The translations under genes were made by a program, and so were the position numbers. A stretch of DNA of 64,000 bases from Plantactinospora soyae. Its GTDB lineage: Bacteria > Actinomycetota > Actinomycetes > Mycobacteriales > Micromonosporaceae. The notes beneath the pieces are model-generated. The model had not been told where the DNA came from, made no database searches, and was given only the letters and a program-made list of their open reading frames with translations. Location of the stretch: contig NZ_JADBEB010000001.1 in NCBI RefSeq assembly GCF_014874095.1, positions 310,001 through 374,000 on the forward strand, given 5' to 3'. Of the stretch, positions 53,120 through 64,000 are shown piece after piece; positions within the stretch are counted from its first letter, which is position 1, and each line of letters begins with the position of its first letter.

Positions 53120-54877
53120 TCAGAGCGCCGGGTAGGCGTTCTGCATGAGCTGGGTGAGCTGGGCGGGGAACCAGGCACCGGAGATCGGAGCACCGGACAA
53201 CGCGCCACTCATGTTGTTGTTGTTACGCGGGTTGCCGCCGTAGGTCGGGTCACACATCCGGTCGAAGCCCTTGCCCTCTTCGTTCTCGATGAGGGTGCTG
53301 GAGCCGTCCGACTCGCCCGGAGGCTTGATCCAGACGTACGCGTCGATTCCGGTGGCGGGCGCCGCACGGGGCCGCTCGCCAAGACCGGCACCGCTCTGGT
53401 TGCACCAGTTGCCGAGGTGGATCCGGCGGTCGATGCGGGAGCCGTTCACCTGCTGGTTGACGTCACCCGAGGTGACCGCACCGGTCGGCCGGGCCGAGCC
53501 GCCCCAACCGTTCCGGGAGGTGTCGATCAGCATGCCGATGTTGGAGTCGAAGCCCTGCCCGACCAGCTCCGTACGGAGTGCCTGGGCGAATCGCTGCTCG
53601 TCCACGTACCGGTTGTAGTCGATCCAGGTCGACAGCCGGTTCGCCTCGGTCACGTTGAGGTAGGGCTCCAAGGTGGCCGAGTAGTTGGCGGTGTTGGCGA
53701 TGAAGCCGTGCACGTTGGCCTGGGTGCTGCCCTCGGCCCGGGAGGCCTCGGCGAAGATCTGCGCCGACGCCCGGAAGTTGTCGTCCCACCCGATCCAGCC
53801 GTGGTGGCCGGCGTCGATGTAGTTGTAGACGTTCGGGATCGCACCGAGCTTCGACAGGGCGTAACCGACACCCTTGACGTAGTTGCCGTTGGCCTTCATC
53901 GTGTCGCAGTTCGCGGTCGCCGTCTCACGCGGGGCGACGTTGGTCACCAGGTTCGGCAGCGAGTCGATCTCGATGATGGTGATGATCCGCAGGCTGCTGT
54001 ACGCGGCGTCGTCCAGGATCGCGGCGATCGGGTCGATGTACGCCGTCTTGTACCTGGGGAGCTCGGTCGCCTGGAGTTCACCGTTGGAGGCCAGCGCGGC
54101 ACAGTCCCGGCCGGGCAGGTTGTAGATGACGAACTGGATGTAGCCGGCACCCTGCGCGAGAGCCTCGTCCAGGTGGTCCCGAACGCCCATCGGGCCGTTC
54201 GAGCTGCTGTCCGGGTCGCCCTCGATCGCGGCGATCCGGTCGATCCAGACACCGGTCGGGTTGTTGGAGATCCGGTTGCCGCCGGAGACGCTCTCCGCCT
54301 TGGCCTTCCACTCCGGGTTCACGTAACCCCGGGAACCCTGGTACGGGTTGTTGACCCGGGCGCTGGGGCCGGGTCCACCGGTCGGCGGCGTGGTCGGTCC
54401 CGTGGTCGGTCCCGTCGTCGGCCCGGTGGTCGGCGGCGTGGTCGGTGCGGTCCCGTTGCAGTTGACCCCGTTGATGCTGAAGGAGGTCGGCGCCGGGTTG
54501 CTGCCACTCCACGAGCCGTTGAAGCCGATGCCGGTGGAGGCGCCGGTGGCGAGGTTGCCGTTGTACGACAGGTTCGTCGCGGTCACCTGGCTGCCGGACT
54601 GGGTCCAGTTGGCCGACCAGCCCTGGGTCACCCGCTGGCCGCTGTTCGGGAAGGTGAAGCGGAGGGTCCAGCCGTTGATCGCGTCACCGACGTTCCGGAT
54701 GGTGATGTTGGCGCTGAAGCCACCCTGCCACTGGTTGCTGCCGTACGTGACGCTACACCCGGGGGCGGCGTACGCCGATGTCGCTGGGAGGGTGACCAGG
54801 CCGGCGGCCACGAGGGTGCTCGCGCCGGCCAACGCCACGACCTTCTGCCGAGCGGACATTCTAGTCCGTAAATTCAT
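53120..54877 (-). CDS. Secreted cellulase: CBM2 + GH6 (exoglucanase type)
   Basis: A 585-aa enzyme. A signal peptide (about 1-38, ending TSAYA-AP) is followed by a CBM2 cellulose-binding domain (about 39-140, with surface Trp residues in YGSNQWQGGFSANI and WSANWTQSG), then a Pro/Thr/Gly linker (PTTPPTTGPTTG). The GH6 barrel fills residues about 165-585. The proton-donor Asp305 in IEIDSLPN and the conserved Asp258 in LPGRDCAAL are present. The loops around DAGHHGWIGWDDN and WIKPPGESDG fit a tunnel-forming cellobiohydrolase. AAGGAG lies 9 nt before the ATG. It would release cellobiose from cellulose. Confidence 0.93.
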   Translation of the reverse strand: MNLRTRMSARQKVVALAGASTLVAAGLVTLPATSAYAAPGCSVTYGSNQWQGGFSANITIRNVGDAINGWTLRFTFPNSGQRVTQGWSANWTQSGSQVTATNLSYNGNLATGASTGIGFNGSWSGSNPAPTSFSINGVNCNGTAPTTPPTTGPTTGPTTGPTTPPTGGPGPSARVNNPYQGSRGYVNPEWKAKAESVSGGNRISNNPTGVWIDRIAAIEGDPDSSSNGPMGVRDHLDEALAQGAGYIQFVIYNLPGRDCAALASNGELQATELPRYKTAYIDPIAAILDDAAYSSLRIITIIEIDSLPNLVTNVAPRETATANCDTMKANGNYVKGVGYALSKLGAIPNVYNYIDAGHHGWIGWDDNFRASAQIFAEASRAEGSTQANVHGFIANTANYSATLEPYLNVTEANRLSTWIDYNRYVDEQRFAQALRTELVGQGFDSNIGMLIDTSRNGWGGSARPTGAVTSGDVNQQVNGSRIDRRIHLGNWCNQSGAGLGERPRAAPATGIDAYVWIKPPGESDGSSTLIENEEGKGFDRMCDPTYGGNPRNNNNMSGALSGAPISGAWFPAQLTQLMQNAYPAL

Positions 54878-55645: not shown

Positions 55646-55666
55646 GCTAATCTCGGTCGTGGCTCG
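55646..55666 (+). promoter_or_regulatory. Conserved promoter block, module 1
   Basis: GCTAATCTCGGTCGTGGCTCG matches 57967-57987 at 17 of 21 bases. Both blocks lie 30-45 bp before the ribosome-binding site of a paralogous surface-protein gene. TAATCT (here) and TAGCGT (there) could be -10 elements. Role inferred from conservation and position. Confidence 0.5.
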
Positions 55667-55698
55667 TCTTTCCCGGCGAGCCGCGACAAGAGGGAAGG

Positions 55699-56895
55699 AT
55701 GACGAAAGTCATGTCCAAGAAGTTCCTCGGCAAGGTGATCGCTGGAGCCGCTCTGGGCGGCGCGTCCCTACTGGTCTGGGCCCCCTCGACCGCCCTCGCG
55801 GACGGCGGGTACCACCCGGACGGATACCAGAAGCACGACTCGGGTCGTGTCTTCGCGAAGCCAGAAGTGGCGAAGCCAGGGCAGGAGGTCAAATTCATCG
55901 AGGTCTGCTCCGAGCCACAGCAGCACGCGTGGTTGTGGTCCAAGGTCACCGGCAAGGTGGATCTGGCACCCAAGGATCACAAGGAAGGCTACGAAGCCGA
56001 CAAGAAGGCCGAAGAGAGCAAGGGCGGCTGGGACGACGGCGGCAAGAAGCCCGAGGAGAGCCCGGAGCACGCCGCGAAGCCCGGCGACCCCGGGAGCCAC
56101 GAGAGCAGCGGCGAAGAGTACAAGAAAGAGCGCGAGTACCAGGAGTTCCTGAAGTACAAGGAGCAACAGGAGTACCTCGAGTACCGCCGCTACAAGGAGA
56201 AGTCGGCCCCGGCCGAGAACGGGGCGCCGCGGACCGAGGGTGCTCCGTCAGCCGAGGAAGGGGCACCGGCCGCGCCCGGCCCGTCCGCGGGCGCGGTTCC
56301 GGCTCCGCCGTCGCCGTCCGCGAACGGCCAGCTTCCCCAGCCCGCCGACGGTTACCAGCCGCCGGCCGGAGGGCCGGCACCCGGCGGTGTCGGCGGCAGC
56401 ATGGCGGACGACGGCAAGGCATACGAAGAGGGCAAGCAGGGTTGGGACGACGGCAAGAAGGCCGAAGAGGGCAAGGACGGCTGGACCGACAAGAAGGCCG
56501 AAGAAGGCAAGCAGGGCTGGGACGACAGCAAGAAGGCCGAAGAGAGCAAGCCCGGCTGGGACGAGAAGAAGGCCGAAGAGCACAAGCAGGGCTGGGACGA
56601 CAAGAAGGCCGAAGAAGGCAAGGACGGCTGGACCGACGAGAAGGCCGGCTACGAGTACTGGGCCGGTGTCACCATCCCGTGGGACGCCAAGCCGGGGACG
56701 TACGAGCTGAAGGGCTCCTGCGGCGAGGGCGAACTGATCATCACGCCCAAGGGCTGGGTCGACGGCGGTGACGGCGGAGCCACCTCCGGCAACAGCGACA
56801 ACCTCGCGGTGGCCGGCGTGGGCATGCTCGGCATGGCCGCACTCGGCGGGCTGGTACTGATGCGTCAGCGCCGTACCGATGAATCGCACGCCTGA
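55699..56895 (+). CDS. Surface protein with split beta-domain and Lys/Glu/Trp repeats (module 1)
   Basis: A 398-aa secreted, C-terminally anchored protein. A signal peptide (about 1-35) precedes the first half of a beta-sandwich-like domain (KPGQEVKFIEVCSEPQQHAW, then GKVDLAP), a long insertion, the second half (EYWAGVTIPWDAKPGTYELK, GSCGEGELIITPKGW), and a final membrane helix with RQRR tail. One Cys in each half could form a disulfide. The insertion includes a Tyr/Lys/Glu helix, a Pro/Ala stretch and six tandem 12-residue units of the form KKAEEGKxGWxD (about 56419-56646), plus one isolated unit near 55988. No LPxTG motif is visible. It overlaps a sortase gene by 17 bp. Confidence 0.75.
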   Translation: MTKVMSKKFLGKVIAGAALGGASLLVWAPSTALADGGYHPDGYQKHDSGRVFAKPEVAKPGQEVKFIEVCSEPQQHAWLWSKVTGKVDLAPKDHKEGYEADKKAEESKGGWDDGGKKPEESPEHAAKPGDPGSHESSGEEYKKEREYQEFLKYKEQQEYLEYRRYKEKSAPAENGAPRTEGAPSAEEGAPAAPGPSAGAVPAPPSPSANGQLPQPADGYQPPAGGPAPGGVGGSMADDGKAYEEGKQGWDDGKKAEEGKDGWTDKKAEEGKQGWDDSKKAEESKPGWDEKKAEEHKQGWDDKKAEEGKDGWTDEKAGYEYWAGVTIPWDAKPGTYELKGSCGEGELIITPKGWVDGGDGGATSGNSDNLAVAGVGMLGMAALGGLVLMRQRRTDESHA

Positions 56896-57655
56896 CTCGG
56901 CGGTGGGCGGGGCCGGCGGCCGTCACGGGGGACCGTGGCGCGCCGCCGGCATCAGCCTGGTCGCCCTGCTGGCGCTGGTCGGCGCCGGCCTGATCGGCGC
57001 CGCCCTGAACGCCCCGGAACCGACGGCCCCGCCGCAGCCCAGCGCCGCCGCCGCACCGCAGGGCTCCGACGACGAACCCACCACCACCGACGCACCGCCG
57101 AGCGGATCGGCCTCCTCGTCAACGCCTCCGCCGCCCGGTTGGGAACTTCCCGACGTCGCCGCGGCGACACCCGGGCCGGCACCGACCACGACGTCGCTGG
57201 ACCGGTCCGAACCGACCAGAATCGCCATTCCGAAGATCAGCGTCGGTGCGACGATCATGCCCCTCGGCATCACGACCGAGGGCATGGTGCAGGTGCCCCC
57301 ACTGGCGAAGGCGCAACTCGCCGGGTGGTACCAACTCGGTCCGACGCCCGGGGAGGTCGGCAACGCCGTGATCGTCGGCCACGTCGACTCGAAGGAGATC
57401 GGCCCGGCGGTCTTCTTCCGGCTGGGTGCCCTGCTTCCCGGCGACACGATCGAGGTGACCCGCAAGGACGGCAGGATCGCCACCTTCGTCGTCGAGGGCG
57501 TGAAGTCGTACCCGAAGACCGCGTTCCCGACGGACCTCGTCTACGGCCCGACCGACGTACCGGGGCTCCGGCTGATCACCTGCGGCGGCGACTTCGACGA
57601 GCGGATCGGCTCCTATCCCGACAACATCGTCGCCTTCGCCAGGCTTGCCACCTGA
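56879..57655 (+). CDS. Class F-like sortase (module 1)
   Basis: A 258-aa membrane-bound transpeptidase. One N-terminal helix (about 22-43), a Pro/Ser/Thr-rich spacer (48-105) and a sortase barrel (110-258). His168 in VIVGHVDS and Cys235 in LITCGGDFDERIGSY are the catalytic pair; the Arg that should complete the triad cannot be fixed by eye. The start overlaps the surface-protein gene by 17 bp, so the two are translationally coupled and the surface protein is the likely substrate or partner. Confidence 0.85.
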   Translation: MNRTPDSAVGGAGGRHGGPWRAAGISLVALLALVGAGLIGAALNAPEPTAPPQPSAAAAPQGSDDEPTTTDAPPSGSASSSTPPPPGWELPDVAAATPGPAPTTTSLDRSEPTRIAIPKISVGATIMPLGITTEGMVQVPPLAKAQLAGWYQLGPTPGEVGNAVIVGHVDSKEIGPAVFFRLGALLPGDTIEVTRKDGRIATFVVEGVKSYPKTAFPTDLVYGPTDVPGLRLITCGGDFDERIGSYPDNIVAFARLAT

Positions 57656-57678
57656 GCAGGCGTGGCACGGCCCGGTCC

Positions 57679-57710
57679 CGGGGGGACGGCGAGTCTTCGC
57701 CGTCCCCCCG
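57679..57710 (+). terminator. Terminator after sortase 1
   Basis: CGGGGGGACGGCGA (57679-57692) pairs perfectly with TCGCCGTCCCCCCG (57697-57710), a 14-bp stem with a GTCT loop, 23 bp past the stop codon. It ends the first module's transcript. Confidence 0.75.
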
Positions 57711-57966
57711 GTACGTCCGCTCCGACCGTCCCCGTCCGCCGCAGACGTGCCTGGGACACGGGTCCGGGCAATGGGCCCGGACGTCGCCGACGGGGTCTGA
57801 CCGCTCGTCCGGGCACCGACCCGTCCCGGGGCGCCCGAAGGGTGTGTACGGCGTCGACCCGCCCCGGGAAGACGGCAAGGGTCCGGCATCGGCGATAGCC
57901 GTTCTATCACCTCAATACGAACTTTCAGAAGAAATACTCGTAATCGCGACATGGTCTACCAAACTA

Positions 57967-57987
57967 GCTAGCGTCGGTCGTAGCTCG
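57967..57987 (+). promoter_or_regulatory. Conserved promoter block, module 2
   Basis: GCTAGCGTCGGTCGTAGCTCG, the counterpart of 55646-55666. Downstream both continue with GGCGA and end in GGGAAGGA as ribosome-binding site, so the whole leader was duplicated with the genes. Confidence 0.5.
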
Positions 57988-58030
57988 ACTGGCCGTCGGG
58001 CGAACCAACGGGGAAGGAGTACCTCGAGTT

Positions 58031-58789
58031 ATGAGTAGCAACTTGCTGGGAAAGGTGTTGGCCGGCGCCGGGCTCGGCGCCGCCTCCTTATTGATCTGTG
58101 CGCCCGGAACCGCCCTGGCCGACGACTACCGGCCGGGACACGAGGACAACAAGGGCCACATCTACACCGAGCCGAAGGGGGTGAAGCCGGGACACAAGTT
58201 CAAGATCTTCCTCAAGTGCGAGCACCCGGTGGAGCGGCCCTGGGTCTCGTCGAGGATCACTGGCAAGATCTGGCTCAAGCCCGTGAAGGAACATGACGAG
58301 CGGGAGGGACGCCCACAGGCGCCGGATGACAACGGCTCCGAGGATCCCGGCCAGCCCTCGCAGCCGCCGCAGACCGGGCAGCCGTCGTTGCCGCCGGACG
58401 GCGAGCAGCCCGGGCAGCCGGAAGACGGCCAGCCCATGCTGCCGGAGGACGGCCTGCCGCAGGACGGGGCCGACGAGCAGACCGAGGACGGGGCCGGCGG
58501 GCAGCCGCAGGGCGGCGAGGGTGGCCAGGCGGCCGCGTACGGCGACGAACACGAGTACTGGGCCTGGGCCAAGGTCGGCTCGAAGACCAAGCCCGGCCAC
58601 TACGAGGCCAAGGGATCGTGTGGCCACGGCACGATCGTGGTCCTGCCCAGGGGCTGGGTCCCCGGTGGTGACGGCGGCGCCAGCACCGACACCAGCCGTA
58701 CCGTCGCCGGTGCGGGCATGCTGGGAGCGGCCGCGATCGGTGGCTTCCTGATGATTCGCCGACGTCGTACCGATGGCTCAGTCGCCTGA
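58031..58789 (+). CDS. Surface protein with split beta-domain (module 2)
   Basis: A 252-aa paralogue of the 55699 protein. Same plan: signal peptide (MSSNLLGKVLAGAGLGAASL...ALAD), first half-domain (KPGHKFKIFLKCEHPVERPW, then GKIWLKP), insertion, second half-domain (EYWAWAKVGSKTKPGHYEAK, GSCGHGTIVVLPRGW), then GDGGAST, a membrane helix and RRRR. The insertion is different: about 90 residues rich in Pro, Gln, Gly and Asp (PGQPSQPPQTGQPS) with no Lys/Trp repeats. Each half again has one Cys. No LPxTG. It overlaps the second sortase gene by 17 bp. Confidence 0.75.
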   Translation: MSSNLLGKVLAGAGLGAASLLICAPGTALADDYRPGHEDNKGHIYTEPKGVKPGHKFKIFLKCEHPVERPWVSSRITGKIWLKPVKEHDEREGRPQAPDDNGSEDPGQPSQPPQTGQPSLPPDGEQPGQPEDGQPMLPEDGLPQDGADEQTEDGAGGQPQGGEGGQAAAYGDEHEYWAWAKVGSKTKPGHYEAKGSCGHGTIVVLPRGWVPGGDGGASTDTSRTVAGAGMLGAAAIGGFLMIRRRRTDGSVA

Positions 58790-59543
58790 CGTGCCGACCA
58801 GGAGCGCCAGCGGCCGGCACGGGAAACCGTGGCGTGCCGCTGGCGGCGTCCTGGTCGCACTGCTCGCCCTCAGCGGAGCCGCCCTCGTCGGCACCGGCCT
58901 CAATCCGGCACCGGCACAGCCGCCGCAGCCCGCCGACGTCGAGCCCGAGGTGTACCCGGAGCCGGACTGGGCGGCCGAGCCGGCACCGCAGTGGGAGTCC
59001 GCGTCGCCGACCCCGTCGACAACCGCCGCTCCGACCGGTACGCCGCCGAGCGCCCGGGCGTCGACCACACCCGCGCCGGTGGGGATGCCGCGATCGGAAC
59101 CGACGAAGATCACGATTCCGAGGATCAAGGTGGACGCGAAGATCATGTCGGTGGGGCTGAACGGCGACGGCACCGTGCAGGTGCCCTCGCTCAAGCAGGC
59201 TCGGCTCGCCGGCTGGTACAAGGTCGGTGCGAGCCCCGGCGAGATCGGCAACGCGGTCATCGTCGGACACGTCGACTCGGCCGCGATCGGACCGGCGGTC
59301 TTCTTCAAGCTCGGCGCGCTCACCCGGGGCGACGAGGTACGGGTGACCCGGAAGGACGGCAAGGTCGCCCGGTTCCGGGTCGACACCGTGAAGTCGTACC
59401 CGAAGACGTCGTTCCCGTCCGAGGTGGTCTACGGCACCGCGGACACCGCCAAGCTCCAGGTGGTGACCTGCGGTGGAAGGTTCGACAAGAAGGAAGGCAG
59501 CTACACCAACAACATCGTGGTGTCGGCGAGCCGGATCCCGTGA
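58773..59543 (+). CDS. Class F-like sortase (module 2)
   Basis: A 256-aa paralogue of the 56879 sortase: N-terminal helix (about 24-43), Pro/Thr/Glu-rich spacer and sortase barrel from about residue 108. His166 in VIVGHVDS and Cys233 in VVTCGGRFDKKEGSY are kept. As in sortase 1, the position nine residues after Cys is Gly, so the catalytic Arg is not obvious. It is coupled to its surface protein by the same 17-bp overlap as in module 1. Confidence 0.85.
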   Translation: MAQSPDVPTRSASGRHGKPWRAAGGVLVALLALSGAALVGTGLNPAPAQPPQPADVEPEVYPEPDWAAEPAPQWESASPTPSTTAAPTGTPPSARASTTPAPVGMPRSEPTKITIPRIKVDAKIMSVGLNGDGTVQVPSLKQARLAGWYKVGASPGEIGNAVIVGHVDSAAIGPAVFFKLGALTRGDEVRVTRKDGKVARFRVDTVKSYPKTSFPSEVVYGTADTAKLQVVTCGGRFDKKEGSYTNNIVVSASRIP

Positions 59544-59601: not shown

Positions 59602-62600
59602 TCAGCTGGCCGCCGACGTACGCACCAGGGTGCGGATCTGTCGCAGCAGTACGGAGAGCGCCGCCAGGTCGGCCCGGGACTCGTCGAACTCCCCCATCGC
59701 CTTACGGGTCCGGGTGATCGAGATGGAGTTGGACCGCTCCCACTCCTCGACCCGCTGGTCCGGCGCCAGATCGGTCGAGGTCCCGCTGAGCACCTCGGCG
59801 GTGAGCGCGGCCAGGGCGGCGTAGAGGTCGTACCGCAACGCCATCCGGGCGAGCGTCTGCCAGCGGTCCTCCCTCGGCAGCAGCGAGATCTTCGACAGCA
59901 GCGAGTCGACCCGGAACCGGTCGGAGAGTACGAAGTAGACCGCCGCGACCTCGCTGACGTCCCGACCGGTCGTGGTCGCCGTCTCGACGATGTCGAGCAA
60001 CCCGAAGCTGTACATCAACCGGGTCGCCTGCTCGGCCAGCTCCCGGGGCAGCCCCCGGCCGATCGACGCCTCGACGTGCGCCTCCAGCGCCCGCCGCTCG
60101 CTGCCGTAGAACAGGTTGCCCAGCTCGGGCAGGAGTCGGGACACCCCGTCGCGCAGCCGGGCGGTCTCGGCCGGCACGTCGATCGGGGAGCGACGGTTGG
60201 TCACCAACCACCGGACCGCGCGGTCCAGCAGCCGGCGGGTGTCCAGGTAGATCGCGGTCTGCACCTCGGTCGGCACCCGGTTGTCCAGCGCCTCGATCTC
60301 GGCCCAGACCTCGCGCAGCCCGAACACCTCGCGGACCACCACGTACGCCCGGATCACGTCCGCCGGGGTCGCGCCGCTCTCCTCCACCACCCGGTAGATG
60401 AACGAGATGCCGCCCCGGTTCACCGCCTCGTTGACCAGCATCGTGGTGACGATGTCCCGGTGCAGGCGGTGCTCCGACATCCGGTCGGCGTACCGCTCGC
60501 GCAGCGGGGTCGGGAAGTAGCCGGCCAGCACCTCGAAGGTCCAGCCCTCGTCGGGCAGGCCGTCGGCCAGGATCTCCCGCTCCAGCACGATCTTGACGTA
60601 CGCGAGCAGCACCGCGAACTCCGGCGCGGTCAGCCCCGACTCGGTCCGGGTCGCCAGTTCCTCGTCCGGCGGCAGCGCCTCCAACTCCCGGTTGAGGTGA
60701 CCGGCCCGCTCGAAGTCGCAGATCATCCGCCGGTGCACCGGCAACAGGGACGCCGCCTGGGCCATCGCGTTGCCGATCGCCCGCGCCTGGTCGTAGTTGT
60801 CCCGGAGCACCAGGTGGGTGACCTCGTCGGTCATCTCCGCCAGCAGGGCGTCCCGGTCCGGAACGGACAACTCGCCGTCGGCCACCGCCGCACCGAGCAG
60901 GATCTTGATGTTGACCTCGTGGTCCGAGGTGTCCACCCCGGCCGCGTTGTCGATGAAGTCGGTGAAGATCCGGCCGCCCGCGAGGGCGTACTCGATCCGG
61001 CCGACCTGGGTGAAGCCCAGGTTGCCGCCCTCGCCGACGACCTTGCAGCGCAGGTCCTTGCCGTCCACCCGGATGGCGTCGTTGGACTTGTCGCCGACCT
61101 CGGAGTTGGCCTCCGACGACGCCTTGACGTAGGTGCCGATCCCACCGTTCCAGAACAGGTCGACCGGAGCGCTCAGGATCGCCTTCATCAACTCCTGTGG
61201 GGACATCGACTCGGCATCCGCGTCGAGGTCGAGCGCCGCGCGGACCTGCGGGCTGATCGGGATCGACTTCGCGGTACGCGGGTAGATCCCGCCGCCCTCC
61301 GAAATCAGCTCGGCGTTGTAGTCCGCCCACGAGGATCGCGGCTGGTCGAACAGCCGCCGCCGCTCCACGAAGGAGGACGCGGCATCGGGAGTCGGGTCCA
61401 GGATGATGTGCCGGTGGTCGAAGGCGGCCACCAGCCGGATGTGCTCGGAGAGCAGCATCCCGTTGCCGAACACGTCGCCGGACATGTCGCCGACCCCGGC
61501 CACGGTGAAGTCCTGGGTCTGGGTGTCGATCCCCATGTCCCGGAAGTGCCGCTTCACCGACTCCCAGGCGCCCCGGGCGGTGATGCCCATCTTCTTGTGG
61601 TCGTAGCCCGCGGAGCCACCGGAGGCGAACGCGTCGGCCAGCCAGAAGCCCTGGGACACCGAGATCTCGTTGGCGATGTCGGAGAAGCTGGCGGTGCCCT
61701 TGTCGGCCGCCACCACCAGGTACGGGTCGTCGGCGTCGTGCCGGACCACGTCGTGCGGCGGCACGATCTGCCCGCCGACCAGGTTGTCGGTCACGTCCAG
61801 CAGGGCCGAGATGAAGCCCTTGTAGCACTCCACCGCCTCGTCCCGGTCCCCCGGCTTCTGCTTGAGCACGAAGCCGCCCTTGGCGCCCACCGGCACGATC
61901 ACCGCGTTCTTCACCATCTGCGCCTTGACCAGGCCCAGCACCTCGGTACGGAAGTCCTCCCGCCGGTCGGACCAGCGGATGCCGCCCCGGGCCACCGGCC
62001 CGAACCGCAGGTGTACGCCCTCGAAGCGCGGCGAGTAGACGAAGATCTCGTACTTCGGCCGGGGCGCCGGCAGGTCCGGGATCGCCTGCGGGTCCAGCTT
62101 GAACGCGACGTACGACTTCGGCCGCCCGTCCATCCGGCGCTGGTAGAAGCTGGTCCGCAGGGTGGCCTGGATCAGCGTCAGGTACGACCGCAGGATCCGG
62201 TCCTGGTCGAGGCTGCTCACCTCGTCAAGCTGCTGCCCGATGCTGGTCACCAGCTCCTTGCTGCGCAGCACGCGCTCCTCGGCGCTGCGCCCCGGCGACG
62301 GCGAGAACCGCACCTCGAAGAGTTCCACCAGCGAGGCGGCGATCTCGGGATAGGCGATGAAGGTGGACTCCATGTAGTCCTGCGAGAAGACCGTGCCGGC
62401 CTGGCGCAGATACTTCGCGTACGCCCGCAGCACCACCACCTGCCGCCAGGTGAGCCCGCCGCGCAGTACCAGTTCGTTGAAGCCGTCGACCTCGGCCTCG
62501 CCGCGCCAGGTGGCGGAGAAGGCGTTCTCCACGTGCGGGCGGACCTCGGCCAGGTCCCGGGCGCCGTCCGGCAGCTCCAGACCGAAGTCGTAGAGGTAGA

Positions 62601-64000
62601 TCCGCCCGTCGATCCGGTCCACCTCGTACGGGTGCTCGTCAACGACCCGTACGCCGAGGGAGTGCAGCACCGGCAGTACGGCGGAGAGCACCATCGGCTC
62701 GCCGTACCGGTAGACCTTGAACCGGACGTCCTCGACGGTGGTGGCCGGTGCGGCGGCGCCCGGACGGACCGCCTGCTGCTTGCGGAACATGTGCATTTCG
62801 AGCTGGCCCGGCTCTTCGAGCAGTTCGAGCTTGGCGAGGTCCTTCATCGCCTCGTACGGGGTGTGCCCGTCCTTGTAGCCCTCCGGGAACGCGTCTGCGT
62901 ACCGGCTGAAGAGCCGCTTGGCCTGCTCGTCGCCGAGCTTGCGCTCCAGCACCAGCCGGTAGTCGTCGTCCCACAGCCGGGTGGCGTCGGCGAGTTCCTC
63001 GGCGAGCAGGTCCGCGTCGATCTCGCTCGGCGGGTTGGCCGGGTCGGTCCGGACGATGAAGTGCACCCGGGCGAGCATCGACTCGGTGACCCGGGTGGTG
63101 TAGTCGACCCCGATCCCGTTCAGTTCGCGGAGCAGGATCTCCTGCATGCGGAGCCGGTTCTGGGTGGTGAACCGGTCCCGGGGCAGGTAGATCAGGCAGG
63201 AAATGAACCGGCCGTACCCGTCGCGGCGCAGGAAGACCCGCAGCTGGCGGCGGCCCGCCATCCGGAGCACCCCGACGACCGCGTGGTAGAGGTCGTCGGT
63301 CTTGATCTGGAACAGCTCGTCCCGGGGGTACGTCTCCAGGATCTGCAACAGGTCCTTGCCGGAGTGGCTGCGCGGGCTCAGCCCGGAGCGGTCCAGCACC
63401 TCGGCGACCTTCCGCCGGACCACCGGCAGCTCGCGGACGCTGGTCCGGTACGCCGCCGTGGCGAGCAGGCCGAGAAAGCGGCGCTCGCCCACCACCTCAC
63501 CGTCGGAGTTGAAGAGCTTCAAGCCGATGTAGTCCAGGTACGCCGACCGGTGCACGGTGGCCCGGGAGTTCGCCTTGGTGATGATGAGCAGGCGCTTCTC
63601 CGTCACCTTCTGGTGCGCCTCCGGCGTCATCGAGGAGAGCGCCCTCGGCATCGTCGAGTCCTGCCGCAGAATGCCCAGCCCGGTGCCGAGGACCGCCTCC
63701 AGCGCCTTCTCACCGGGGCTGTCTTCGGTCGCGGGGCTCGCAAGCTCACTCCTCGCGCTCCCGCCATCAGCATCGACCAGGCGGTACTCGCGGTAGCCGA
63801 GGAAGGTGAAGTGCTCGTGCGCGAGCCAGCGCAGCAGTTCCACCGAGTCCGTGATGTCCTTCTCCGGCACCGGTGGGCGATTGTCCGAGGTCCGGTCGGC
63901 GGCCAACTCGTCGGCGAGCGCGAGGGCCCGTTGCCGCATTTTCGGCCAGTCTTCCACCGCCTCGCGTACGTCGGTGAGCACCCGCTGCAACTCGGCCCGC
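59602..64000 (-). CDS. gdhB: NAD-specific glutamate dehydrogenase, large type (5' end beyond window)
   Basis: At least 1466 codons of the 180-kDa class of NAD-dependent glutamate dehydrogenase (about 1,650 aa in full). It deaminates glutamate to 2-oxoglutarate and feeds amino-acid carbon into the TCA cycle. Visible parts are the N-terminal regulatory region (ELLRWLAHEHFTFLGYREYR, LIYLPRDRFTT), the catalytic core (VARGGIRWSDRREDFRTEVL, MVKNAVIVPVGAKGGFV with catalytic Lys) and the NAD domain (VVGEGGNLGFTQVGRIEYAL). A long helical C-terminal domain ends TSAAS. The frame is open to the window edge; the start codon lies outside. Confidence 0.93.
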   Translation of the reverse strand, partial: RAELQRVLTDVREAVEDWPKMRQRALALADELAADRTSDNRPPVPEKDITDSVELLRWLAHEHFTFLGYREYRLVDADGGSARSELASPATEDSPGEKALEAVLGTGLGILRQDSTMPRALSSMTPEAHQKVTEKRLLIITKANSRATVHRSAYLDYIGLKLFNSDGEVVGERRFLGLLATAAYRTSVRELPVVRRKVAEVLDRSGLSPRSHSGKDLLQILETYPRDELFQIKTDDLYHAVVGVLRMAGRRQLRVFLRRDGYGRFISCLIYLPRDRFTTQNRLRMQEILLRELNGIGVDYTTRVTESMLARVHFIVRTDPANPPSEIDADLLAEELADATRLWDDDYRLVLERKLGDEQAKRLFSRYADAFPEGYKDGHTPYEAMKDLAKLELLEEPGQLEMHMFRKQQAVRPGAAAPATTVEDVRFKVYRYGEPMVLSAVLPVLHSLGVRVVDEHPYEVDRIDGRIYLYDFGLELPDGARDLAEVRPHVENAFSATWRGEAEVDGFNELVLRGGLTWRQVVVLRAYAKYLRQAGTVFSQDYMESTFIAYPEIAASLVELFEVRFSPSPGRSAEERVLRSKELVTSIGQQLDEVSSLDQDRILRSYLTLIQATLRTSFYQRRMDGRPKSYVAFKLDPQAIPDLPAPRPKYEIFVYSPRFEGVHLRFGPVARGGIRWSDRREDFRTEVLGLVKAQMVKNAVIVPVGAKGGFVLKQKPGDRDEAVECYKGFISALLDVTDNLVGGQIVPPHDVVRHDADDPYLVVAADKGTASFSDIANEISVSQGFWLADAFASGGSAGYDHKKMGITARGAWESVKRHFRDMGIDTQTQDFTVAGVGDMSGDVFGNGMLLSEHIRLVAAFDHRHIILDPTPDAASSFVERRRLFDQPRSSWADYNAELISEGGGIYPRTAKSIPISPQVRAALDLDADAESMSPQELMKAILSAPVDLFWNGGIGTYVKASSEANSEVGDKSNDAIRVDGKDLRCKVVGEGGNLGFTQVGRIEYALAGGRIFTDFIDNAAGVDTSDHEVNIKILLGAAVADGELSVPDRDALLAEMTDEVTHLVLRDNYDQARAIGNAMAQAASLLPVHRRMICDFERAGHLNRELEALPPDEELATRTESGLTAPEFAVLLAYVKIVLEREILADGLPDEGWTFEVLAGYFPTPLRERYADRMSEHRLHRDIVTTMLVNEAVNRGGISFIYRVVEESGATPADVIRAYVVVREVFGLREVWAEIEALDNRVPTEVQTAIYLDTRRLLDRAVRWLVTNRRSPIDVPAETARLRDGVSRLLPELGNLFYGSERRALEAHVEASIGRGLPRELAEQATRLMYSFGLLDIVETATTTGRDVSEVAAVYFVLSDRFRVDSLLSKISLLPREDRWQTLARMALRYDLYAALAALTAEVLSGTSTDLAPDQRVEEWERSNSISITRTRKAMGEFDESRADLAALSVLLRQIRTLVRTSAAS

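Follow-up and report, generated by a model that had tools for sequence, protein, structure and literature searches.

Among the closest described relatives of the system reported here are the pairs of Actinoplanes missouriensis, in which proteins encoded beside class F sortases (srtF1/AMIS_11010 and srtF4/AMIS_36440) were proposed as possible substrates (mBio 2026, PMC13251363). The role of class F sortases is called unknown in the accessible portions of that study and of PMC6998099, the latter also reporting, for actinobacterial class F enzymes, an asparagine in place of the arginine that is reported to be essential in class A enzymes (PMC13257024, PMC9520033). For Cutibacterium acnes, a class F sortase that uses LPXTG has been reported (PMC13257024), PDB 5uus is cited as a class F structure (PMC9520033), and the class E sortase signal of Streptomyces coelicolor, LAXTG, is described as non-canonical, differing from LPXTG at P3 (PMC5148588). 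Here we describe a 64,000-nucleotide stretch of the 9.7 Mb chromosome of Plantactinospora soyae (NZ_JADBEB010000001.1, positions 310,001 to 374,000; hereafter the window), which holds two consecutive gene pairs, each encoding a secreted surface protein followed by a class F sortase. This pairing arrangement is real, conserved and general, and is partly known already; the new part is a threonine-less tag in the surface proteins, tied to a sortase lineage that has asparagine for arginine.

An earlier note on this DNA had described two consecutive surface-protein/sortase pairs at 55699-59543, and the open reading frames, read from the sequence, agreed with it in coordinates and overlaps: surf1, srt1, surf2 and srt2 follow one another in this order on the + strand (Table 1). 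The two sortases, which the note had called class F-like, both exceed the NCBIfam class F cut-off of 166 bits (200.6 and 198.3 bits) and are 52% identical to each other. The surface proteins share 39% identity over 119 N-terminal and 54% over 81 C-terminal alignment columns. By eye, each starts with a hydrophobic segment that ends in ALA just before an aspartate, and its C-terminal part has a further hydrophobic stretch with RQRR or RRRR after it. As the note had stated, no LPxTG precedes the final helix; none was found anywhere in surf1 or surf2, and neither protein matched a Pfam family at E <= 1. In both pairs the surface-protein gene overlaps its sortase gene, and the overlap, initially taken to be identical, proved equal in length (17 nucleotides) but different at 5 of 17 bases.

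We searched 121 genomes of Micromonosporaceae with the class F model NF033748 (cut-off 166 bits), which matched at E <= 0.001 in 119 genomes and over the cut-off in 106; since the matches listed are the best ones, the sample of class F enzymes leans to high scorers. Together with 100 further stretches, the search loci yielded 141 distinct class F sortases of at least 150 amino acids. A partner was defined as an upstream gene on the same strand whose product has a C-terminal helix, a basic tail and a loose motif, and such a gene was present for 133 of these 141 sortases; five of the eight without one lie at or near the upstream end of their stretch. Because the loose motif is built into the partner rule, this count is no proof of the motif, for which motif-free alignments and a count over control genes serve instead. 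Of the 137 class F sortases whose upstream stretch was complete, 134 have a partner by the same rule, vs 12 of 195 control genes (Micromonosporaceae, redundancy kept; the twelve omit genes whose neighbour is the partner of a sortase), and by eye eleven of the twelve resembled false frames and one was a protein with canonical LPVTG. The pairing is thus not due to chance. An alternative way of finding partners, by profile search, was dropped, as its E-value and end filters lost many true pairs, those of the window among them.

The window genome itself has seven sortases by Pfam PF04203, namely one class E enzyme (238.2 bits, cut-off 160) and six over the class F cut-off, and all six of the latter lie downstream of a gene encoding a C-terminal helix and tag. 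The earlier note had raised the case that homologues of the surface proteins might occur mostly away from sortases; instead, a profile of the C-terminal region gave 35 matches at E < 1e-15 in the 121 genomes, and all 35 adjoin a class F sortase. We also fetched, with a profile of the window's sortase group, the best 80 of at least 583 loci from named organisms (Micromonospora, Salinispora, Asanoa, Verrucosispora, Plantactinospora and one bacterium named to family), some of whose genomes the first set also contained, differently named. Under a rule allowing threonine, 77 sortases of this set have a partner and five do not, three of these five standing at a contig end. Counting each sortase gene from its first possible start codon, the overlap is 17 nucleotides in 43 of the 77 pairs and 14 nucleotides in 14.

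At the position where LPxTG would be expected, just before the helix, Micromonosporaceae partners carry a tag of the form x-[P/V]-x-[T/A/G]-G-x-[G/A]-G. Common versions are GPATGGGG, GPATGFGG, GPHTGGGG and APSTGGGG, with GVDTGAGG also present, and most partners have threonine at P1 (threonine, glycine and alanine in 78, 32 and 23 cases, amended from 79, 37 and 17 after six readings, five APAGGGGS rows and L079, were corrected by hand to alanine). The window tags, WVDGGDGG and WVPGGDGG, have glycine at P1, where threonine is expected. This register did not depend on a motif: a full-length, motif-free MAFFT alignment of 23 partners, threonine-type ones included, set WVPGGDGG on GPATGGGG, and one of 32 C-terminal regions from the close group left P, G, V, G and G invariant in P-x-G-x-V-x-x-G-x-x-G. 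Aligning the residues before the helix in homologous pairs, as the earlier note had proposed, gave the consensus x-V-x-G-G-D-G-G in these 32 sequences (P3 valine 32/32; P1 glycine 31/32 and alanine 1/32; P1' glycine 32/32), so that GDGG, offered there as a candidate for recognition, is indeed the conserved stretch. The 77 named-organism pairs had glycine at P1 in 72, alanine in five and threonine in none, with valine at P3 in 75; since the profile that retrieved them was one of the same sortase group, the figures speak for conservation within the group and not for independence from it.

The claim that the proteins carry no obvious variant of a sorting signal held by eye, but not on alignment with other class F partners, which sets WVDGG and WVPGG on GPATG and GVDTG. 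The NCBIfam model GVDTG_CTERM (NF058571) matched full-length surf1 and surf2 at 23.3 and 23.4 bits, below its cut-off of 29, and the last 65 residues of surf1 alone at 28.6 bits; it matched 31 of the 32 close-group C-terminal regions at E <= 0.01. The tag is not a motif of a wholly unknown kind, but a variant form of a sorting domain already known.

The identity of the P1 residue tracks the sortase phylogeny. When P1 was placed as a label on a tree of 133 sortase domains, 11 changes were required, compared with a mean of 48.8 after shuffling, and none of 200 shuffles gave a value as low. Both srt1 and srt2 fall within a group of 40 sortases whose partners have glycine (31) or alanine (9) at P1 and never threonine. 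In keeping with the earlier suggestion, the window's pairs look like dedicated enzyme-substrate pairs. Outside this group, the sister sortases L131 and L128 have the tags GVPTGGGS and GVPAGGGA, respectively; such threonine-to-alanine changes between close relatives suggest that class F enzymes in general may tolerate different residues at P1. A search for covariation between single sortase and tag residues had no power, with four independent pairs on well supported branches and eight on the best tree.

The tandem is present in all seven Plantactinospora genomes searched, and a profile of tag plus helix gave 14 strong matches, two in each of these genomes and all in the tandem, the next best match having E 0.008. 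Within the genus the pairs occur one-to-one. On the sortase side, srt1 and srt2 each form a clade of seven with one member per genome. A joint clade of srt1 and srt2 was not rejected (p = 0.239, approximately unbiased test), but was not the best tree. The four genes are flanked by a GH6/CBM2 cellulase gene and an NAD-glutamate dehydrogenase gene (Pfam), both on the opposite strand. Of the 80 named loci, some of them cut short, 73 contain the dehydrogenase gene and 57 the cellulase gene, which indicates that the single pairs of Micromonospora mostly occupy the corresponding position; among the 80, two pairs were present in the two Plantactinospora loci alone. The reading that the duplication itself created the dedicated pairing is not supported, given that single pairs with the same overlap occupy the same place in Micromonospora and relatives.

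The C-terminal profile also hit further places. Of twenty that were fetched, nine include a class F sortase and eleven lack one. Four of the eleven (L249, L250, L252 and L253) are multicopper oxidases (Pfam PF07731) with the threonine-type tag GAHTGDGG or APGTGDGG, a helix and a basic tail, and with no class F sortase within the 10 kb examined; they are possibly substrates served in trans. A further four (L256, L260, L261 and L263) have canonical LPITG or LPTTG, L262 has GATPSGDGG, and L267, a weak match in the window's own genome, has no clear motif. Tags away from sortases were hence of the threonine type, plus one glycine-type tag (L265) that is beyond judging at a contig end. As an observation apart, two stretches (L254:4448-6094 and L264:2-1021) hold a tag, GSVPGGAGG or GGVPGGAGG, adjoining a divergent class F sortase with the active site TCSG. 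The tag protein of L254 is a DUF4331 protein (Pfam PF14224, E 2e-155), making it a second glycine-type case with a different cargo.

As for the enzymes, the histidine and cysteine (His168 and Cys235 in srt1, His166 and Cys233 in srt2) are invariant in the 133 class F sortases, as is the asparagine at the place of the catalytic arginine (Asn249 and Asn247), a match to the arginine of the genome's own class E enzyme that was made by eye and rests on the strand that follows, MAFFT having placed a gap there. A structural model of srt1 has the sortase fold, with 118 fold matches in the PDB at E <= 0.001, and its sequence alone gave no PDB match at E <= 0.01. A hydrophobic stretch, noted by eye and a candidate N-terminal membrane anchor, lies near residues 22-42, where the model has low confidence.

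The AlphaFold2 model of surf2 (mean predicted local distance difference test score of 64) shows seven high-confidence strands in two runs, 42-81 and 174-204, separated by a low-confidence stretch; the tag and helix are likewise of low confidence. Two cysteines, one per run of strands, are invariant in 23 partners. Comparison of the fold with the PDB gave no match at E <= 0.001, and as the best reached only 0.067, the many immunoglobulin-like entries among the top rows make that fold a lead only. In 26 of 27 partners measured, the insert between the runs is 75 to 374 residues long, and it changes in composition, from Lys/Glu/Trp/Asp repeats in surf1 and Pro/Gly/Asp/Glu in surf2 to 25% histidine in L053. 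As modelled, the cargo looks like a stiff base with a fast-changing loop. In L053 (1389-2336), the histidines of the insert stand in repeats (KKFHHHDKKWDD), and this insert is possibly metal-binding.

We consider it probable that each pair forms a self-contained display module, in which the class F sortase acts on the partner encoded by the overlapping gene by way of a threonine-less tag. After export, the C-terminal helix and basic tail would keep the surface protein in the membrane and present it to its own sortase, which would read x-V-x-G-G-D-G-G, the positional counterpart of LPxTG with glycine (alanine in some relatives) for threonine. The sortase cysteine would then attack the carbonyl of the P1 residue, leaving the helix behind, and the protein would be transferred to a cell-wall amino group, probably one on a peptidoglycan precursor. 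The cargo so displayed would be a small beta domain with two conserved cysteines and a projecting, fast-changing, disordered-looking loop. In most relatives one pair lies between the cellulase and dehydrogenase genes; each Plantactinospora genome searched has a tandem instead, with two diverged copies. The analysis shows the pairing of the genes, their overlap, the conserved tag, the lack of threonine at P1 in this sortase group and the one-to-one occurrence in the genus; that the sortase binds the tag and cuts between its two glycines, and that the protein becomes covalently joined to the wall, is what we infer. More tentatively, and with somewhat less than an even chance in our judgement, a Micromonosporaceae sortase lineage may have lost both the P1 threonine (now glycine, sometimes alanine) and the catalytic arginine (now asparagine), and may cut xVxG/GDGG at the slash, with one partner per enzyme encoded in an overlapping gene.

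Several points weigh against the display module. With asparagine in the place of the usual catalytic arginine, sortase activity is not to be assumed; deletion of all four class F sortases of A. missouriensis is reported to have caused no visible phenotype (PMC13251363); and the literature searches turned up no enzyme of this kind that biochemical work supports. Support for the 40-member sortase group is moderate (89 in the Shimodaira-Hasegawa-like approximate likelihood ratio test), and no sortase residue was tied to the tag. P4, P3 and P1' are said to vary among sortase classes, with P1 unnamed in the accessible part of that source (PMC8361268). Finally, L265 carries the glycine-type tag APMGGDGG with no sortase in its stretch, the contig ending ~0.2 kb further on, and two named loci with room upstream (L182 and L203) had no partner by the rules used.

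Among the alternatives, the one that survives best, although we think it unlikely, is that these are true enzyme-substrate pairs in which a glycine-rich patch is read and another bond is cut, for example behind the second glycine or within the Ser/Thr stretch, the threonine-to-glycine register being a mere alignment match. GGDGG does offer several bonds that are alike, and the glycines at P3' and P4' are conserved in the close group (29/32 and 32/32, respectively); nevertheless, the conserved valine and the alternation of threonine and alanine at one site, as in the tags of L131 and L128, fit a single fixed register.

Less probable still is that the class F enzymes, with asparagine for arginine and glycine for threonine, have lost sortase activity, the pair forming a membrane-bound complex in which the sortase fold serves as chaperone or partner. 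The asparagine does stand in all 133 sortases at a position where arginine is reported essential in class A (PMC13257024, PMC9520033), yet those 133 also keep histidine and cysteine without exception, and the asparagine is shared by class F enzymes whose partners are of the threonine type.

We regard as very unlikely a third possibility, namely that the sortase joins the surface proteins mutually or to another protein in the fashion of pilin sortases, with lysines of the insert as acceptors. One small sortase per repetitive, lysine-containing protein would suit such a scheme, as would the 16% Lys+Arg of the surf1 insert, but inserts of the surf2 type are poor in basic residues (Lys+Arg 1-6% in the seven Plantactinospora copies), no second pilin-like gene stands in the pair, and srt1 has no hydrophobic stretch after its catalytic domain. 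Lastly, cutting of the Gly-Gly tag by a rhomboid-type protease, with another task for the neighbouring sortase, is scarcely credible: the likeness to GlyGly-CTERM proteins (a glycine-rich motif, helix and basic tail, as far as the accessible descriptions go) is superficial, GlyGly-CTERM does not figure among the seven NCBIfam families recorded at E <= 0.01 for the 32 C-terminal regions, and adjacency to a class F sortase is near-constant, though rhomboid genes were not searched for.

If the display module does operate with glycine at P1, its sortase would be a useful ligation enzyme with a signal unlike LPxTG. The partner rule, combined with the tag x-[P/V]-x-[T/A/G]-G-x-G-G, provides a testable substrate for most class F sortases, perhaps including those of Actinoplanes.

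The features of the locus are collected in Table 1. Separately, we observed a TAATCTCGGTCGTGGCTCG-like stretch ~30-65 bases ahead of both surface-protein starts and also in the aligned relatives, which may be a promoter or regulator site.

Table 1. Coordinates of the paired genes, their features and their neighbours in the window.
Feature	Coordinates	Strand	Remarks
GH6/CBM2 cellulase gene	53120-54871	-	Neighbour
Stretch TAATCTCGGTCGTGGCTCG upstream of surf1	55647..55668	+	Alike in both copies and relatives; possible regulatory element
surf1, secreted surface protein, 398 amino acids	55699..56895	+	Split beta domain, long disordered-looking insert, tag WVDGGDGG, C-terminal helix, RQRR tail
36-bp repeats, 6.1 copies	56424..56647	+	Code the Lys/Glu/Trp/Asp-rich part of the surf1 insert
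surf1 sorting tag WVDGGDGG (P4 to P4')	56755..56778	+	Putative
surf1 C-terminal hydrophobic stretch, then basic tail	56803..56862	+	Hydropathy rule
srt1, class F sortase, 258 amino acids	56879..57655	+	His168, Cys235; Asn249 at the usual Arg place
surf1/srt1 overlap, 17 nucleotides	56879..56895	+	
Counterpart of the TAATCTCGGTCGTGGCTCG stretch before surf2	57966..57989	+	
surf2, secreted surface protein, 252 amino acids	58031..58789	+	In the model, high-confidence strands within 42-81 and 174-204; none in residues ~90-170
surf2 sorting tag WVPGGDGG (P4 to P4')	58655..58678	+	Putative
surf2 C-terminal hydrophobic stretch, then RRRR	58700..58756	+	Hydropathy rule
srt2, class F sortase, 256 amino acids	58773..59543	+	His166, Cys233, Asn247
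surf2/srt2 overlap, 17 nucleotides	58773..58789	+	
NAD-glutamate dehydrogenase gene	59602-63990	-	Neighbour
Tag stretches of the window surface proteins			KGWVDGGDGGATS and RGWVPGGDGGAST

Beyond the family, a set of 246 genomes from the phylum gave class F matches at E <= 0.001 in 146 genomes and over the cut-off in 33; class F sortases are common in Micromonosporaceae and also in one further family of its class, whose genomes have several each. Under a looser rule, 44 of 49 class F sortases in the phylum loci, the window's own included, had a candidate partner, those of L303, L311 and L312 resembling false frames. The tags there (SVKTGVGG, GVHTGGGG, GVATGAGG, GVETGGGS, GVHAGEGG and similar) have threonine or alanine at P1, and glycine was seen in none of the phylum loci bar the window's own. 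GVDTG_CTERM gave 26 matches over its cut-off in the 246 genomes, 24 of them within ~1.1 kb of a listed class F match; the other two (G282:C3 and G228:C113) had no class F match nearby among the matches listed. In some genomes of another family of the class (L303 and L311; G302:C4:600784 and G143:C1:7856772), the tag protein is encoded upstream of the class F sortase gene but on the other strand; in L303 and L311, two of the three with a presumed false frame, a GVDTG_CTERM match stands there.

Although NCBIfam holds GVDTG_CTERM, the term GVDTG returned no title on sortases in the literature, and no sorting signal with glycine at P1 was seen in the accessible sources, which is no proof of absence as most subscription journals lie outside the search. 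Like the proteins described by NF058571, those of the window have a motif, helix and basic tail at the same place at the C-terminus, but the fourth-position threonine of GVDTG (taken from the model's name) is glycine in both. The class E sortase of S. coelicolor resembles the window enzymes in being an actinobacterial sortase with a non-canonical signal; unlike the window tags, LAXTG keeps the P1 threonine (PMC5148588), and the window genome's own class E enzyme has arginine where its class F enzymes have asparagine. The C. acnes enzyme bears the same class name, but is reported to use LPXTG (PMC13257024), and 5uus, matched by the class F profile only at E 0.019, stands far from this group. 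In the A. missouriensis pairs, too, the neighbour of the sortase is a secreted protein that has a C-terminal helix as well as basic residues and lacks any known pentapeptide; in the accessible part of that report, on whose description alone this comparison is made, no motif is named and the proteins are set aside (PMC13251363).

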